Origin: Spinacia oleracea
Lineage: Eukaryota; Streptophyta; Magnoliopsida; Caryophyllales; Amaranthaceae
DNA length: 64,000 nucleotides
Direction of reading: 5' to 3'
NCBI RefSeq assembly: GCF_020520425.1
Contig: NC_079487.1
Coordinates: forward strand, 128,796,385-128,860,384
This document shows positions 18,196 to 37,800 of the stretch, piece after piece. A model generated the notes under the pieces. It was not told the DNA's origin. It did no database searches and was given only the letters and a program-made list of their open reading frames with translations. A program made the position numbers and the translations under genes. Positions within the stretch are counted from its first letter, which is position 1; every line of letters starts with the position of its first letter.

Positions 18196-18636
18196 TATCG
18201 GTATATGTAGGAGTTTTTTTTTTAACTTAACAATTTAATAGAATTCGAAAATCTAGTTTATATATAAAAGTAACTATGTAACTCTTAAAAACATTTATCT
18301 AGCAAAAAAATATAATACTACGTATAAAGTTACCAAAAAAGTGGATAAAAGTTACTTCGATGTACAATAATATTATTGTACACCTTATGCGTACAGAACC
18401 TTTTGCATGATATTTGATCTGATTTAATTTCGTATGATCTATTTTGATATGATTTGATATTTTTTACTTTTTCAAATAAAGATTTGAATAAAAAATATTA
18501 TTATTATCAATAATTTATATGATTAATATCATAATCATTGTTAAAATAATTTTATTCAAACCTAATCCAACAAACAGAAAAATAATCTTAATAACATCAA
18601 CTAGGCAATTACAGAGTATGACTTTAATCATTGTAC

Positions 18637-18859: not shown

Positions 18860-19904
18860 CAAGATATCGAAATCAAATGGCAAAACGAACTAAACAAATA
18901 GATAGAACAATTAATATAACAATAAGCTATTAGTTGAGTTTCAAGAGTCCTATTTGCAAAAGGCATTAGTAAAGAACATATATGTAGCATATAGCTACTT
19001 ATTCTTATAGAAATTCTCAAAACTAAAGAAAGTTTATACACAACAATTAGTTCGTGGTATACTAAACAAATGGAAAGGTTTACTGACGTTCCAAAATGCT
19101 CTTCTGCTTCTTCATGAACAAATGTCTTGAGGCGCAATTGCAGAACAATGTTCCTAGAAAGAGTCGTCGCTAGGTTAATTTTGATTAGGAAGTAGAACGT
19201 GCCTAGTGTTTCGAGCACATCTTTGAAGTCGTTTTGATCAACCTGACAATAGACATGCTTCACCAGTTGGTAAGTATATCACAAAATTAAATTTTAGAAG
19301 TAAATTGAAAGTATAAGTTCGAGAATAGGTTAGAGGGCAGATCTTGTATATTCTAAATATTTTTTTAGAATTTTTAGAGAACGTGTTAAAAAGGCATTGT
19401 GTCGGTATGCCAGTTCCATCACAGAATCGAAGTTCAAAGTATCTTCCCTTTCTTATGTCTTGTGTGGGTTGACAAGTTTTAAAGGTTCTTTTTAATTGCT
19501 TGAGAAATAATTGTTTTTGGATAAATAATAGCATACTAAAAGCTCTTATCCTAACTTAAACTGGTATCCCTATACCCCCCCCCCCCCCTAATTTTTAGAT
19601 CATATCACAGTGAGATGAGATTATACACTTCCTTAATTTGTTCCCAAAGGAGTTTCAATATATCTGTTTTCAGGGATTCCAACGAATATATACCAAACTA
19701 TAATTTCATTCCTTTCCATCTCTCCCTCTCCTTCCCAATCCCCTTATCTTCTTCTCTATTTGTGTTTTATGGTTTGTGAATTCTGAAAGGTTTCTTCAGA
19801 ATTGCCTATGCGTTTTGGTTATGTATGCATTGAGGTTGCGAGGAGTGATCAGGATTATTTTTGTGTCAACGGAAGTATACTCTTGATATTATTTCGGAAG
19901 CAGG
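18860..19904. other. Intergenic region, no gene recognised
   Basis: Moderate-composition DNA with two overlapping minus-strand open frames (18823-19263 and 19238-19534) that I do not recognise and that lack conserved motifs. A run of about 14 C lies at 19576-19589. Confidence 0.4.
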
Positions 19905-20664
19905 TTTTGCGGCTTTACCATTGAACAAAATCATCGTCTTGGCCTAGCTGATGGGTCGTTAATGAAGGAGCCTGAGGCTTACCGCCGGCTTGTAGGCCGC
20001 CTGGTCTATTTAGTTGTGACTCTTCCGGACCTTGCTTATTCGGTCTATATCTTATCACAATTCATGCAGGAGCCTCGAGTTGACCATTGGGATGCAACAT
20101 TGAGAGTTGTTCGGTACTTGAAGGGTACACCAGGGCAGGGTATCCTATTACGTGCTGACAGTAATTTAACTTTGCAAGGATGGTGCGACTCAGATTGGGC
20201 AGTGTGTCCCATCACTCGTCGTTCTTTAACAGGTTGGTTTGTGTTTTTAGGTCATTCGCCTATTTCATGGAAGACAAAAAAAACCAACACACTGTTTCTC
20301 GCTCTTCCGCAGAGGCAGAATATCGCTCCATGGCCGCGATTACATGTGAATTAAAATGGTTAAAGGGATTGTTGTTGAGTTTAGGAGTTCATCATCCTAA
20401 AGTTATTCCATTATTTTGTGACAGTTAGTCCGCTTTGCACATGGCTAAGAATCCGATTTTTCATGAGCGCACAAAGCACATTGAGGTTGATTGTCATTTT
20501 GTTCGTGATGCTATAGTAGATGGTGTAATTGAACCATCTTATGTATCCACTTCCTCACAGCTCGCTGACATGTTTACTAAAGCTCTTGGGAAGCAACAAT
20601 TTGATTTTCTTTTTTCCAAGTTGGGCATTTTTAATCCCCACACATGCTCCAACTTGAGGGAGGG
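19905..20664 (+). pseudogene. Ty1/copia polyprotein 3' remnant (RT end and RNase H)
   Basis: The frame reads the end of reverse transcriptase (RRLVGRLVYL, YSVYILSQFM, VVRYLKGTPGQG) and then the RNase H domain ([43 protein letters not shown]). It is broken by a frameshift near 20277 and by an in-frame stop at 20426-20428, just before SALHMAKNP. The 5' part of the element is absent. A polypurine tract (gagggaggg) ends it, directly before the LTR. Confidence 0.9.
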
Positions 20665-20929
20665 TGTTACGAAAATTAAATGTTATACCTAATTAATTAA
20701 GAAAGTAATAATGTTCTAGCTGTTATGTAAGTTACAAAGTATTAAAAGTATTAATGTTGTAGTTGTTACGTAAGTTAGAAAGTATTAGGAAGGTTAGTGG
20801 GTTTAGGAAACTCTTTGATTTTCTTATCCTAGTTGTTTCGTACGCCCTGCTTGGAAATTGTGGGTGTATAAATACTCTTGTTCATCAATAATATTGGGGG
20901 AAAGCTTTTCCCTTATATAATATTTATCA
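20665..20929 (+). repeat. 3' LTR of the copia remnant
   Basis: It follows the polypurine tract, starts TGTTACG and plausibly ends at tatttatca. It contains a TATA-like tataaata near 20867. No 5' LTR exists in the window. Confidence 0.7.
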
Positions 20930-22034
20930 CTTATGAATCAGAAAACAGAAAAGAGAGAAAGTGAAAAAAAAATGTGGAAATTTGTTGCTTACAAGGTTTG
21001 AACCTTAGTTGATTGAAGAAGTATGATAGAGCTTGCAAAGGGAAGGAATGCAAAACATTTCCTTAGGAATAGTGAATTTCATGAATTTGTGACTCAAAAC
21101 ACTATTGATAAGCATAGTGTTGCAAATGTGAGTATTTTAAAGGTTAGAGATGCGCATATATCAAAAAGTTTTAAATATGATTTTCACAAAATCTTGTTTA
21201 TAATGGGTGTACATTAAATTATTGTACACCAAGCCCATATAACAAACTTGGTTGGACTCACATGTGTGAGTATGAAAGAACACTTTTCTTTTTTTCACGC
21301 TTCTCTAGTCATTTTCTGTTCATTCATCCTTTCTCTCTCCTCTCCCTCTCCCTCTCCCTCTCCCTCTCCTCCTCTCTAGCTTGGGATTGTTCTGCGATTT
21401 TCTGTGATTTTTGCGGCGAATTTCTCTGCGATTTTTGCGTACTATTTTCTCTGCAATTGTTGTTAATTGATTCCACTCCATAATCAGGGTTAGTTTTCTA
21501 CTTTTGTGTGTGTTTTCCTGAATATTGATTCCACTCATTGTTGATTAATGTTTTTGATTATTCCACATATTTTGTTTTAAGGATGGATTAATGAATTTGT
21601 ACAATAGATTGGGGAGAAAGGACTGGATTCAATCGCATGATTCCACTGTTTAATAAGATTTCACAATAATTAATGGAAGATGCTTTTGTTCGTTCAAACC
21701 CTAAATACAGGTAATGAACTACTGCTCGCTCTTCTTATCAAACTAATGACTAATCCATCCATCCTTGTTTCATTGTCTAAGTCTCTTATTATGAATTATG
21801 CGTTATCAATTATGAAGAAGTATTATATATTGGGTTTCTCTTGTTTTGAGTTTTGATGTTGCGCGCATACTTAGTACTCGGCAAACTTATTCAGAGCTAA
21901 ATACTTTGCTACATTCTTTGTGGTTCGTAGGGAGTTAGATAATGAGCTGCAAGATTCACTTTATGAATTCTTGGAAGAAAGACAAATAGATGATTTACTT
22001 TACCCAACCTTTAGTACATAAAAGTCTTATGTCA

Positions 22035-24540
22035 GTGAAGAATTATTGATATAAAATAATACCGCGTAACAGTTAAAAATTTCAATGTAAAAGTTAACTC
22101 TGTTGTAGTAAAAGTTAAGAAAAGTCTTATATCAGTTTAAATAACTTTTACTACATGAACGCTAACTTTTAATGCAAAAAGGCTAACTTTTACTCTCTTT
22201 ACTCAAAAAGGCTAACTTGGGTTCACTTAAGTGAAGAAATAGGGATATAAATAATACCCCGTAAAAGTTAAAAATATCAATGTAAAAGTTTACTCTGTTG
22301 TATTAGTAAAAGTTAAGAAAAATCTTATATTAGTTTACCTAACTTTTACTACTTGAACGCTAACTTTTTCATTTGTTAAAGTTGTGGTTATGTTGGTTAA
22401 AGTTATGTAAATTGTTCTAAAAGTTAAGACAGTCTTCCGTCGACTCAAACCTAACTTTTACTTTTAATAACTTAACTTAACTGCTAAAAGTCTGACTTTT
22501 ATATTTTTACCTTTCTTCAGCTAATGTGAGTCGTGCATTATTTTTATTTCACATATTGTAATTTTATGTGTTAAAGTTGTAGTTATGTAGGTTAAAGTTA
22601 TGAAAATTGTTCTAAAAGTTAAGGCAGTTTTTCGTCGTCTCAAACCTAACTTTTACTTTTATTAATTTAACTTTAACTACTAAAAGTCTAACTTTTTATA
22701 TTTCTACCTTTCTTCGGCTAATGTGAGTCATGCAATCTGTTTTATTTCACACCTTGTAATTTTATGTGTTAAAGTTGTTGTTATGTTGGTTAAAGTTGTG
22801 GAAATTGTTCTAAAAGTTAAGACAGTCTTCCGTCGACTCAAGCCTAACTTTTACTTTTAATAACTTAACTTTAACTGCTAAAAGTCCGACTTTTATATTT
22901 TTACCTTTATTCAGCTAATGTGAGTCGTGCATTATTTTTATTTCACACATTGTAATTTTATGTGTTAAAGTTGTGGTTATGTAGGTTAAAGTTATGGAAA
23001 TTGTTCTAAAAGTTAAGGCAGTTTTTCGTCGTCTCAAACCTAACTTTTACTTTTATTAATTTAACTTTAACTACTAAAAGTCTGACTTTTATATTTCTAC
23101 CTTTCTTCGGCTAATGTGAGTCATGCAATCTGTTTTAATCCACACTTTGTAATTTTATGTGTTAAAGTTGTGGTTATGTTGGTTAAAGTTATGGAAATTG
23201 TTCTAAAAGTTAAGACAGTCTTCCGTCGACTCAAGCTTAACTTTTACTTTTAATAACTTAACTTAACTGCTAAAAGTCTGACTTTTATATTTTTACTTTT
23301 CTTCAGCTAATGTGAGTCGTGCATTATTTTTATTTCACACATTGTAATTTTTTGTGTTAAAGTTGTGTTTATGTAGGTTAAAGTTATGGAAATTGTTCTA
23401 AAAGTTAAGGCAGTTTTTCGTCGTCTCAAACCTAACTTTTACTTTTATTAATTTAACTTTAACTACTAAAAGTCTAACTTTTTATATTTCTACCTTTCTT
23501 CGGCTAATGTGAGTCATGCAATCTGTTTTATTCCACAACTTGTAATTTTATGTGTTAAAGTTGTTGTTATGTTGGTTAAAGTTATGGAAATTGTTCTAAA
23601 AGTTAAGACAGTCTTCCGTCGACTCAAGCCTAACTTTTACTTTTAATAACTTAACTTTAACTGTTAAAAGTCTGACTTTTATATTTTACCTTTCTTCAGC
23701 TAATGTGAGTCGTGCATTATTTTTATTTCACACATTGAACTTGTCTGTGTTAAAGTTGTGGTTCTATAGGTTAAAGTTATGGAAATTGTTCTAAAGGTTA
23801 GGGCAATTTTCCGTCGTCTCAAACCTAACTTTTACTTTTATTAACTTAACTTTAACTACTAAAAGTCTGACTTTTATAATTCTACCTTTTTTCTGCTAAT
23901 GTGAGTCATGCAATCTGTTTTATTCCACACCTTATAATTTTATGTGTTAAAGTTGTGGTTATGTTGGTTAAAGTTATGGAAATTGTTCTAAAAGTTAAGA
24001 CAGTCTTCCGTCGACTCAAGCCTAACTTTTAGTTTTAATAACTTAACTTTAACTGCTAAAAGTCTAACTTTTATATTTCTACCTTTCTTCAGCTAATGTG
24101 AGTCGTGCATTCTTTTTATTTCACACATTGTACTTTAATGTGTTAAATTTGTAGTTTTATAGGTTAAAGTTATAGTAATTGTTCTAAAAGTTAAGGCATT
24201 CTTCCGTCATTAATGTGAGTCGTGAATTCTTTTTATTTCACACATTGTACTTTTATATGTTAAATTTGTAGTTTTATAGGTTAAAGTTATGGAAATTGTT
24301 CTAAAAGTTAAGGCAGTGTTCCGTAATCTCAAACCTAACTTATAATTTTAATAACTTAACTTTAACTGCTAAAAAAGTGTGACTTTTATATTTTTACCTT
24401 TCTTAAGCTAATGTGAGTCATGCATTATTTTTATTTTCACGCATTGTACTTTTCTGTGTTAAAGTTGTAATTTTATAGGTTAAAGTTATGGAAATTGTTA
24501 AAAGTTAAGAAAAGTTTTGTACCAGTCTACCCAATATGCA
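22035..24540 (+). repeat. 196-bp tandem array with two alternating monomer types
   Basis: Monomers begin with gttaaag at 22375, 22570, 22768, 22964, 23161, 23356, 23554, 23749, 23946, 24142, 24259 and 24458. Spacing is 195-198, except one truncated unit of 117 and a last of 199. Odd monomers have aagacagtcttccgtcgact and 'gagtcgtgcatta'; even ones have aaggcagtttttcgtcgtct and 'gagtcatgcaatctg'. The true repeat is thus a dimer of about 392. Two related, more divergent units (22035, 22231) precede them at the same 196 period. All reading frames are closed. Confidence 0.92.
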
Positions 24541-24555
24541 ATTGTTTGAACACTA

Positions 24556-24626
24556 AGGCTATTAGCTCAAATGGTAGAGCAATGTGCATATATGTACATG
24601 GTGTGGGTTCAAGTCCCATATAGCCT
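24556..24626 (+). other. tRNA-like sequence 1
   Basis: 71 bases fold as a cloverleaf: acceptor AGGCTAT/ATAGCCT (7 perfect pairs), D stem GCTC/GAGC, T stem GTGGG/CCCAT with loop TTCAAGT. The anticodon stem (ATGTG/TACAT) leaves an 8-base loop, so a functional tRNA is doubtful and no anticodon is assigned. Confidence 0.6.
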
Positions 24627-24744
24627 ACATACTATTAGGTTGTGTTTTGGTTCGATATAGTGAAAAATGACTAACAGTATAAAGTCATCCCAAAATAGGT
24701 AAAAGTTACCCAAAATGTCGATATTTTTTTCATAATAAAACAAT

Positions 24745-24815
24745 AGCCTATGTAGGATTTGAACCTACATCTCCGCGCAAGGTGCACGGTGCTCGGCCTG
24801 TTGAGCTAATAGGCT
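24745..24815 (-). other. tRNA-like sequence 2
   Basis: Minus-strand 71-mer: acceptor AGCCTAT/ATAGGCT (7 perfect pairs), D stem GCTC/GAGC, anticodon stem CCGTG/CGCGG with loop CACCTTG, T stem GTAGG/CCTAC with loop TTCAAAT. The stems are complete, but position 33 is A where tRNAs have U. A nominal CCT anticodon should therefore be treated with caution. Confidence 0.65.
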
Positions 24816-24928
24816 TACAAAAATAAATACACACAATGTAGAACATATTTCAAACTTTTTAAGTTCCAAAGAGTTCAAAGCACACAATAAGGTTTACCTA
24901 TTGTAGTTTTCCCCCCTGCTCATTAATG

Positions 24929-25001
24929 AGCCCAAAAGAAGGATTTGAACCTACATCTCCGCACAAGCTGTACGGTGCTCGACCAATTGAACTAATAGGC
25001 T
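24929..25001 (-). other. tRNA-like sequence 3
   Basis: A diverged copy of tRNA-like sequence 2: D arm TAGTTCAATTGGTCGAGCA, anticodon arm CCGTA/TGCGG with loop CAGCTTG, and T loop TTCAAAT. There are mismatches in the acceptor and T stems. Confidence 0.6.
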
Positions 25002-25964
25002 TATAAAAATAAAAACACACAATGTACAACATATATAACCATCAAACAGATTATGCAGGGGAATACAACCCGGCCAACTAGTAACAAGTTAAATGTTTAC
25101 TGATGAAGCACATTTTATCAACGGTAAGAACTAAGAAGGAACACAATTTTCTATGTTGATTGCTAGATAAGCATCACCACTTAGTCACTTGCTACATTCA
25201 TTTAACGATATGAACTCACCTATTATCATATTGGGCCACAAATGTCTTGTACTCTTGTTCCAGCCACCACTGCCCATGTTATCACCAACCATTTTGGGAT
25301 TACGAGTGTCACAACAGGTCGTATTATGACAGTATGTGGGGAAGAAACAGAGGATAATTTAGAGGGCTTGATTATAAAATACTAAAGTATACGGTGATGT
25401 AAAACTTGCGACCTAATGAAGCTCCCAGAACAACACTAATCTAATTCAATAGAAAACAACTTTTTTTAAAGAATATGTTACGATTCTTACAATTTCTTAT
25501 AAAACATCTGATCTCGAGATTAATATACACAATTAAGTAACTAATACCCAAAAAAATTATGAAATTTCCAAATCTAGGTCTTTGATTGTGTAGTTCAAAT
25601 AAACCACAAAAAAATTATTCATTTGCAGATGATTGAAGATAACAAAAAAAAATAGATGTAAAGTTTGATATTCGCAAAGAAAAGATCGCATACAGTAGAA
25701 ATTTCTCATAGAATTGAAAGAATTTTCACGATTTCAAAGTTTTTCCCCCAATTTTCTCACCTGAATTTTGCAGCTTCTCTCTCCTATGGTTTTGCGGCTT
25801 CTAGTTCTCTTTCCTCTGTTCTGCGTTTTGTTCTCTCTCTTCAATTGAGTTGTTTTTTTCTTCTATTAATAATTTCGCACGTGTAAAACTTTGGTGTACG
25901 TTAATATTAATGTACACCTGTTGCGCGCAAGACCGATTGTATGATTTTTGGGAAAAAGCTATAT

Positions 25965-26125
25965 GTACGCTTAGTGTACAAGATTCTCTTGTACATCACC
26001 ATTAATTTGTTGACGCATAATCAAATCCACTAAAAAATGAGAATGAAAGACAATAAATATGTCATTTAAACCAATAGAAAATCATGATGTACAAGATGAC
26101 TTGTACACTAGGTGTACATGTAGTA
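25965..26125. mobile_element. Small MITE with gtgtac-type inverted ends
   Basis: 'Gtgtacaag...cttgtacatca' at the left and 'tgatgtacaag...cttgtacac' at the right form inverted arms of about 40 bases. The ends resemble those of the 4.7-kb element next door and a lone hairpin at about 18359-18387 (gatgtacaata/tattgtacacc). Confidence 0.6.
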
Positions 26126-34834: not shown

Positions 34835-37800
34835 ATGGCGAGGGTTCAAGAGAATTGGGAACGCCTTGTTCGAGCTACTCTCCGGCGAGAGCAGCTTCGA
34901 ACCGCCGGCCCCGCCCATGAGCGCCACCCTAGCGGTCTCGCGGGAGCTGTTCCGCCTTCGCTTGGCCGTGCTTCCAATATCGATGCCATTTTGCAAGCTG
35001 CTGATGAGATTCAGGACCAGGATCCCAATGTTGCTCGCATTCGTATGTTTTTCTTTCCCTTCTTCGTAAATTCTGGCAGTTTATGATTGAGAACCATAGT
35101 TTTACAGTGAACTTGTTAGAAAATTTTGACCATGAGTGATGAACAGTTGCTTAGAAGTAAATAAATTGTGGGATATTGTTGAAAATTCTCGTAGTTTGTA
35201 TGTTTAGGAAGGGTGAAATGGGAGGGGAAAGCTTCATTAACGGTTAAGAGATGCAAATAGTTGAACATGCTGCATAAAGTTTTTAGTGATTACATCCTCC
35301 ATAGGATTGTTCTATGTGTTGGTGATGGCCTCATGCATCGTGACCAGATGCCCAGCTGGTTTTTGCACCTGATTTCACATGATTTGGAGACAACAAAATG
35401 AAACGAGAAGCAAACAGATTAACATCATCAGTTTAGAGGTCCCATATTGGGTGATTCCAAATCAATAATGGATATTGATAAATAGTACAAATCACATTGC
35501 AAAATCATAAATAAATATACTTTTAAGATATACATTTAATTTCAATTTTTTTCCATTTAAGCTCACATTTTATTCTGTTAACTTCAAATTATGTTCTGTT
35601 AACCTCATATTTTATTCATTTAATTCTCTTTCTCGGTTTCTTTTTTTATTTCCACCTTTTTTTTTGCCTTTCCGTCGCATATTAGATAGGATCATAGCCG
35701 TGAGAGATGAATACAAAATTTGGATTTCCCCTAAAGCATGGCACGCTCAATATGAGCTGTTTTGCTACCCTAAAGCCATGCAAGGATCCTAAAGCTTTTT
35801 CCACCCTTACACTTAATGGCGCCTCCACCCTTTTAGGTTGCTCACTTTGAGTCTGCCTCCTTCATTCTTGATAGTCACACAGACTCACACCTTACCCCTC
35901 ATCTGACAAAATAGCAACATCCAAATTCGTTAAATGATGCGATGATTGCTCAAACTCTAAGTAGTACTTTTCTTGAATCACACTCTTTTGCGCCTGCTAA
36001 ATGAAGTGATGTTGATCTTAATATTGAGATTAAGTAGCTAATGTGCACGTTTTATAAGCCTTTTTCTTTTTCATTATACTGTTTAAACCAATTCCCGTAC
36101 ATTTTGAAATAAGAAAATAGGAATTTATATTTATACTTTAACTGTTGCTGCCGTAATGTCACGGTCCGAGTGTTTTGACACTGGATTGTGCGACGTGCAC
36201 TTGACTATGGAGCGCAAGGGAGAGAGTGTTAGAATCCAACCTTCCTTTTCATGTAGTTTTCTTATCTATTGCTTTCTAGGACCTTTTTAATAGTTTTCTA
36301 GGCTTTAGATATAATTATTATATTTCTATCAATCCAACGTTCACTGGAAATTTAAAGCTAACTCAAAATAAACCTTTATGAGGGGTATGGACCAATATTT
36401 CTCATCAGAAGTTGCTTTTGCTTAATTAATTGCTTTGTTATTAGCCTTTATAGATATTGTGTTGTCACATGTTTTTAAGTTTTTCAAGACTGAACAAAGT
36501 GCCGACAAAACAAATACGTTCTCGTTGTCAGTACCGCTTTTGCCTGCTGTGCGCACACAAGCGCCCCGATCGACCCTCGACCCTCGCTCTTGTCGCCAAT
36601 AGGCAAGAGTTCCCTTTATGAATCAAGCATTTGGTCGTGCCCCAAGCCTTGAGATTCACTTTCTGCACAAGGCTTGCGTCCTTGCCGCCTCATAGGCAAG
36701 AGCGTGCGCACAATCCGTTGTCAAAACACTCAGGCCGTGACAGCAAGCCTTTTGCGGTAAGTGTATCATATGACTCGTGGGGCACCAACGGGTGCTTAAT
36801 TCAAGATGGACACACTTGCCTATAGGCGACAAGAGCGAGTGTCGATCGGGGAGGTTGTGTGTGCACAAAGGCACAAGTGGGGCCTACGAAGAGAGTGTAA
36901 CAATTTTCGGAGACTTTGTTGAGTCTGAAAAGCTTAAGAACGTGCGACAAAATAATATCTTTAAAGGCTTACACCAACGCTAGTAATTAAGCAAAGACAA
37001 CTTCTGAGCGAGGGTCGACCGGGGAGGTTGTGTGCGCACAAAGGTACAAGTGGGGCCGGCGAAGAGAGTGTAACAGTTTTCGGAGACTTTGTTGAGTCTG
37101 AAAAGCTTAAGAACGTGCGACAAAATAATATCTTTAAAGGCTTACAACAACGCTAGTAATTAAGCAAAGACAACTTCTGATGAGAGGTATTGGTCCATAC
37201 CCCTCATAGAGGTTTATGTTGAATTAGCTTTGAACTTCCGGTGAACGTTGGATTGACAAAAACATAATAATTCTATCTAAAGCCTAGAAAACTATTAGAA
37301 AGTCCTAGAAAGTAATAAATAAACAAAGTACAAGTAAATGAAGGTTGGATTCGAACACGTAAAAATACTATCATGCAGTAGACAGCTGCACCATTGCTCT
37401 TCATATTGCTTCTGCATATGAAGTGATGATGTATAAAACACTATTTTATTGATCTTAGTATTTGAGATTAAGAAGCTAATGTGCACGCTTGATAAGTTTT
37501 TTTCTTTTTCATTGTACTTTTTAAACTGATTCCCTTACATTTCGAAACAAGGAAATAGGAACTTATATTTACATGATAATCGTTGCTGCCATAACATACA
37601 ACCATGCAATAGACAGCTGCACCGTTAGCTCCTCGTATTGCTTCTGCATATGGAGTTGTATGGTGTGGATTTTTGATTGATGCAACATTTCTCTTTTTCC
37701 TTGTATTTTTACTGTTAATTTTAGTAATGTGTAAAGTCTTATGGTGCAGAACTGATGCAAAACCAGCAACATGTCCTGTTTGCATTGTTTGTTGCCTAAT

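Follow-up and report, generated by a model that had tools for sequence, protein, structure and literature searches.

Among the Mutator-like elements (MULEs), Pack-MULEs have mainly their terminal repeats in common. Rice Pack-MULEs capture fragments of host genes (PMC13317346), and in Arabidopsis, where the VANDAL elements are MULEs without terminal inverted repeats (non-TIR MULEs), VANC21 binds to the motif arrays that VANDAL21 carries (PMC5735166, PMC10398659). The present study concerns a 4755-bp element of spinach (Spinacia oleracea) at positions 21185..25939 (+ strand) of a 64,000-nucleotide stretch of contig NC_079487.1 (C1:128796385-128860384), referred to as the window. An earlier note, made from the letters alone, had proposed at this place a non-autonomous element of no named family. 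The family to which the element belongs is mobile: its duplications are of the MULE type, its ends are fixed, its core is common to the copies and its arms are exchangeable. With a probability of roughly 0.5, we read it as a non-autonomous, Pack-MULE-type MULE whose core, an array resembling in layout the VANC targets of VANDAL elements combined with RNA polymerase III (Pol III) promoter-like units, is a cis module that keeps it mobile.

The element resembles Pack-MULEs in its 9-bp duplication, in host-gene fragments between conserved ends and in that no transposase was found in it; in contrast to Pack-MULEs, its copies also have a non-coding core of ~2.5 kb in common, and their terminal repeats are short and degenerate. 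Similar to VANDAL elements, it shows degenerate terminal repeats, a dense short motif in non-coding tandem repeats and a motif copy number that varies among elements (PMC5735166, PMC10398659). The motif AAAGTTA occurs here in both orientations, whereas the motifs of VANDAL elements are YAGTATTAY (same orientation) or AGTTGTCC/AGTTGTAC, and no VANC gene was found in the member frames scanned. The duplications, the degenerate terminal repeats and the host-gene fragments place the element with MULEs and Pack-MULEs, so that it does have named relatives; no description of an array with a facing tRNA-like pair, or of tRNA-like pairs in MULEs, was found in a literature search conducted mostly outside subscription journals, and the term 'tRNA' appears 0 times in PMC5735166.

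A mobile family with fixed ends

The genome searched comprised 894,210,420 bases in 242 contigs. The left 297 bases of the element as query gave at least 44 matches (40 of 93 candidates were scored) and the right 303 bases at least 40 (40 of 75). Twenty stretches around left-end matches and five further ones were retrieved, and both ends were located in 18 copies: the window and 17 of these 25 loci (L009-L014, L018-L020, L023, L024 and L026-L031). The end patterns of the family are CACAAAATCTTGTTTANAANGGKTGTACA and GTACACCTGTTGCGCGCAAGACCNATTG. Thirteen of the 18 copies (window, L009, L010, L011, L013, L019, L020, L023, L024, L027, L028, L029 and L031) carry a perfect 9-bp duplication at their exact ends, in agreement with the ~9-bp target duplication of MULEs. 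The duplications of L012 (within a T-run) and L014 match at 8/9 positions, TTCACTTAA is repeated with a 3-nt shift in L030, and a target duplication is absent at the ends of L018. L026 (980-9880) consists of head-to-tail copies of a 3.37-kb member whose ends are fused at the inner junctions (CAAGACAAATAAAATCTTG), and the tRNA-like pair appears in it three times. L009 is 99.7% identical to the window copy over the full length and lies on a different contig with a different duplication; the movement is therefore recent.

The search for further copies recommended in the earlier note has accordingly returned co-terminal copies with both ends, and these bear out its proposal that the array and the tRNA-like sequences lie inside a dispersed, non-autonomous element. 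A chance juxtaposition of a satellite, tRNA pseudogenes and unrelated palindromes is refuted by the co-terminal copies at independent sites, each with its own duplication.

An empty site was identified for a 337-bp member with the same type of ends, which is nested in L014 (664-1000, the same place as L007) within the left palindrome of a larger copy, with ATTATTGTA on both sides. When the L014 flanks are joined without the insert, they can be aligned over the junction to other copies, where the insert is absent. For 13 other joined insertion sites, no empty relative was present among the retrieved loci. The nested member thus provides an empty-site test; taken with the exact ends and duplications of the other copies, the breakpoints lie ~20 bp outside the ends that had been assumed. 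Aligned to this short member, in which AAAGTT occurs five times, the window positions 18315..18405 (+) represent the right end of a short relative, of the size of a miniature inverted-repeat transposable element (MITE), with AAAGTTA sites and a palindrome. A hairpin at ~18359, suspected from its end motif to be related, indeed sits within this right end (18359-18384).

The window element has the ends CACAAAATCTTG...CAAGACCGATTG, which are co-terminal with the other copies, and is enclosed by the target site duplication TATGATTTT (21176..21184 on the left, 25940..25948 on the right), whose two copies are identical. The aligned copies reach CACAAA... and ...ATTG with the duplications beyond, and the breakpoints therefore lie further out than the 21204-25919 originally given. 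Inverted palindromic ends had been described; two near-perfect palindromes exist, GGTGTACATTAAATTATTGTACACC at 21206..21230 (22/25 positions match) and GGTGTACGTTAATATTAATGTACACC at 25893..25918 (24/26), and both are subterminal, ~21 bp inward of the true ends, because the unit spans 21185-25939 with the TATGATTTT duplication outside. The terminal repeats, CACAAAATCTTG against CAATCGGTCTTG followed by the related palindromes, are short and imperfect. The pattern TGTACA-N4-14-TGTACA occurs five times in the window, compared with 0.05 expected. As had been predicted, the unit encodes no protein: it has no open reading frame of 120 aa or more, and the sole frame of at least 95 aa (98 aa) has no Pfam match.

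Common core, variable arms and the array

To describe the mosaic structure, 13 other copies were compared with the window copy as reference, leaving out the near-identical L009. The left terminal region (21185..21244, +), i.e. the first 60 bp, was aligned in 13/13 copies with a mean identity of 0.90, and the following 300 bp in 9-13 copies with identities of 0.66-0.89. Alignment decreased to 2-4/13 copies in a left variable arm (21545..22024, +), increased to 4-10/13 at 22025-22384 and reached 12-13/13 in the core (22385-24844), which comprises the array and two tRNA-like sequences, T1 and T2. The right variable arm (24845..25564, +) was aligned in 1-2/13 copies, a T2-like copy excepted, and positions 25565-25864 in 4/13, whereas the right terminal region (25865..25939, +; bin 25865-25924) was again aligned in 13/13 with a mean identity of 0.89. 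CT-rich, leader-like stretches near both ends are present as reported, the left one at 21290..21470 (+; aligned in 10-13/13 copies, with a low identity of 0.66-0.78); by eye both are CT-rich on the + strand, which rules them out as an inverted pair. The retention of the core in most copies, while the cargo changes, suggests that the core does something for the element.

A Pfam scan covered 33 open-frame strings, 31 from members and two from outside; 23 of the strings come from the 37 frames of at least 95 aa in 15 copies. Host-gene domains were found in 3/31 member strings, corresponding to the host-gene fragments between conserved MULE ends that characterise Pack-MULEs: mTERF in L028, where both ends were seen (3.3e-5; 23.4 bits, barely above the cut-off of 23.1), DUF7895 in L041 (3.8e-20) and DUF7792 in L042 (1.2e-7), the last two loci being covered only over the 1.5 kb next to their right end. 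A transposase of its own is absent from the window element, as in Pack-MULEs, and for the 15 copies together this applies to the 23/37 frames scanned. Pieces of a MULE transposase are located at L013 1300-3810 (+), close to a family member. They were dropped as the family's own because they lie beyond the duplication-bounded member, and tblastn of the L013 frames against the 15 copies gave nothing at 1e-3. A SWIM zinc finger reading of an L027 string was rejected as well (no Pfam match; nothing significant by tblastn in other loci), and so was PPR for a string in L026 (no Pfam match).

The long tandem array noticed earlier was confirmed at 22367..24208 (+). Its monomer is ~196 bp long and its period 197 or 393 bp, with a dimeric 393-bp order in the window copy. 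Across 18 copies, the number of units ranges from none (L026) up to 14 spaced units. Unit identity is 0.904 within a copy vs 0.891 between copies, so that there is hardly any within-copy homogenisation. The region rich in AAAGTTA/TAACTTT extends over 22090..24708; the element has 52 sites (27 and 25 by orientation) vs 25 in the rest of the window and ~2 in shuffles. On either strand, 15/15 copies have 16-68 sites each vs 1.3-3.4 in single-base shuffles.

These features raise the question of a VANDAL element proper, i.e. a non-TIR MULE that has lost its VAN genes. The 9-bp duplication and a short motif in tandem arrays of non-coding DNA would fit, as would, by description, the degenerate terminal repeats. 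VANA, VANB and VANC genes were, however, not seen in the member copies, all of which are non-autonomous, and VANC21 and VANC6 motifs are not enriched; we consider such an origin unlikely. Since the motifs are not enriched, the array is treated as an analogue, alike in layout, and not as evidence of membership. AT9TSD1 of Arabidopsis is described as unrelated to VANDAL, and it has VANC6 motifs and responds in trans (PMC5735166); our element is likened to it by description.

The facing tRNA-like pair and a possible role for the core

Three cloverleaf sequences had been recorded in the unit. T1 (24556..24627, +; 48.1 bits; TTTT 17 nt downstream) and T2 (24744..24815, -; 51.1 bits; TTTT 3 nt downstream) both contain a box B, exceed the Rfam tRNA gathering score of 29 and are called by ARAGORN. 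The third (~24938/24943..25004, -) is a tandem duplicate of T2 that is truncated, and was seen in L009, L010 and the window copy; with 23.7 bits it is below the threshold, and ARAGORN does not call it. ARAGORN detected T1 and T2 in convergent orientation in 15/20 retrieved loci and at least one of them in 18/20, a single unit being found in L013, L017 and L022 and none in L015 and L025. Over the threshold, Rfam gave 28 tRNA matches, and each of the 13 loci concerned had one or more. BLAST, with matches of at least 84% kept, gave 31 complete or partial occurrences of T2, distributed over 26/36 sources; ten of the 36 sources are 1.5-kb pieces.

The anticodon arm of T1 is a 7-bp hairpin with a 4-nt loop and hence offers no usable anticodon. 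The T2 loop (CAACTTG/CACCTTG) has, by eye, an A at position 33 and therefore no U33. Neither looks like a decoding tRNA. In 24 sequences (23 distinct; T1 and T2 kinds pooled), the acceptor stem was paired in 97.5%, the D stem in 98.9% and the T stem in 97.4%, and folding z-scores of four sequences were between -3.2 and -4.5. Five pairs had changed on both sides vs 2.6 in shuffles (8/500 shuffles reach 5), and the covariation score (0.174 vs 0.115) was matched by 0/500 shuffles. A long inverted hairpin between T1 and T2 is less likely as the conserved feature: T1 has G at position 3 where T2 has C, so that each cloverleaf is kept and the cross-pairing is broken. Box B was present in 17/18 T1 and 14/15 T2. 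T-runs follow at near-constant distances, with TTTT within 20 nt in 15/15 T2 and 15/18 T1, and within 45 nt in 15/15 T2 and 17/18 T1. Box B, cloverleaf and T-run are also features of tRNA-derived short interspersed elements (SINEs) and of tDNA insulators; in contrast to these, the tRNA-like units described here ride within a DNA transposon.

The position of T2 at the edge of the core is relevant for how new arms might arise. If tRNA-like hairpins stalled gap repair or replication there and caused template switching, new arms would start near the 5' end of T2, and the common core does stop within ~30 bp of it. In L011, L019, L021, L028, L029 and L038, what precedes T2 seems by eye to have no relation to the common upstream sequence save for the last few bases, and L022 has a different sequence upstream of T1. 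Such a role in capture is nevertheless improbable: the 15-45 bp upstream of T2 are common to many copies, L019, L021 and L038 have an upstream sequence of their own in common, and the left arms vary far from any tRNA-like unit.

Under the preferred reading of the core as a cis module, a MULE transposase from another element would mobilise the family in trans, with the ends and the subterminal TGTACA palindromes as the likely transposase-binding part. By analogy to VANC on VANDAL arrays, the array may be a platform for a sequence-specific protein of the autonomous partner. T1 and T2 may act as docking sites for TFIIIC and Pol III, which would hold the chromatin open or yield a short RNA, and the core might so exert an anti-silencing effect. 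This reading draws on ends and a core that are common to copies with different arms, on the density of AAAGTTA, and on the paired stems, the T-runs and the flank comparison of T1 and T2.

The core could instead be a passenger. In this case a founder would have chanced to carry the array and a duplicated tRNA-derived pair, both inherited without function, and the arms would have been acquired by ordinary Pack-MULE capture. We regard this as quite possible, at less than even odds, and as compatible with a VANDAL origin. The copies may descend from a single founder, and neither T1 nor T2 seems able to decode. Against a passenger, T2 persists at 87-100% where it is aligned, although its upstream flanks are unrelated, T1 and T2 differ from each other and yet both keep their acceptor, D and T stems, and the TTTT beside T2 is retained in all 15 copies.

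Comparison with the flanks included 15 copies for T1 and 14 for T2; L009, L026b, L026c, WIN2, L022, L016 and L017 were omitted as near-duplicate, truncated, rearranged or without both ends. T1 showed a mean identity between copies of 97.2% vs 92.0 and 81.4 for its 80-bp flanks, and was above both flanks in 85/105 copy pairs. For T2, which exceeded both flanks in 88/91 pairs, the mean identity was 95.0% vs 54.6 and 78.5. A second test used ten copies with contiguous cores, without L009 and the split cores L011, L019, L026, L027 and L028, so that the most divergent copies are missing; the identity was 0.978 for T1, 0.945 for T2 and 0.881 for the rest.

Other observations weigh against a working core or limit the evidence for it. 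The 54.6 upstream of T2 is what arms without any relation give, which means that T2 was kept while its neighbour was replaced, not that it evolved by a slower clock. The conservation excess in the contiguous cores is modest (11/510 circular shifts reach it), and T2 comes only 186th among the 439 windows, both of which suit a passenger; the window of T1 is exceeded by seven others, and the array end next to T1 is almost equally conserved. In the stem analysis, the two-sided pair changes may reflect few events, because most of them divide T1 from T2. Further pair types were not in excess (16 vs 14.7 in shuffles; 77/500), and pairing in the anticodon stem is down to 54.8%, T1 folding there in another register. 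The box A pattern was found in 0/18 T1 and 2/15 T2, counts that are no proof of absence because the pattern was narrower than the usual consensus, and CAA within 15 nt upstream in 0/18 T1 and 1/15 T2. The AAAGTTA expectation comes from single-base shuffles, which lose the repetition, and repeating an array raises the count of every word in it. Per copy, the VANC21 and the VANC6 motif are each found 0-1 times (15 copies). Parts of the core are missing in some members, the short one having no tRNA-like units and L026 no regular monomers, which also suits a passenger. Finally, Pfam revealed no transposase or VANC-like gene among the 31 member strings, spliced or short pieces being undetectable in this way, and the only MULE match (PF10551, E 4e-25) lies in L013 outside the family member; no partner with a transposase came to light in the loci read. 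Overall, sequence comparison gives a mixed picture of whether the tRNA-like pair is under selection.

Neighbouring features and meaning of the family

Right of the element, a 169-bp near-perfect hairpin with TGTACAAG arms occupies 25957-26125. It had been taken, at 25965-26125, for a MITE related to the family; TGTACA is in common, the ends differ, a 9-bp duplication was not seen, and the hairpin was not accepted as a family member. With 31.4 bits against Rfam mir-5014, far under the threshold of 101 bits, it is possibly a MITE resembling a microRNA precursor. Directly left of the element, at 19887-20670, the translation shows by eye the remnant of a Ty1-copia-like polyprotein. Elsewhere in the window, the 7-bp repeat TTATTAT (~117 copies, 93% matches) occupies 248-1057, with a similar stretch in L040, and a 173-bp unit occurs twice in tandem at 36833-37180, with 95% agreement between the two.

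T1 and T2 pass both the Rfam tRNA threshold and ARAGORN, and sequences of this kind could inflate tRNA gene counts in genome annotation. Pack-MULEs are usually characterised by their ends and cargo, and here copies with differing cargo also have an inner part in common. A bolder and rather doubtful proposal goes beyond the cis module: a MULE lineage would use the array and the two Pol III-type units as a portable module that shields it from silencing or drives its spread, with selection keeping the module while gene-fragment arms are swapped, i.e. a DNA transposon with its own tDNA-like insulators. The insulator part is bold because, according to PMC9540200, plants have no reported homologues of animal or yeast barrier elements with similar functions.

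If the core works, the family would allow a direct test of how non-autonomous elements evade silencing in trans, and the VANC story would be extended to another plant group. To our knowledge, the spinach family would then also be the first DNA transposon for which tRNA-like Pol III units do useful work.

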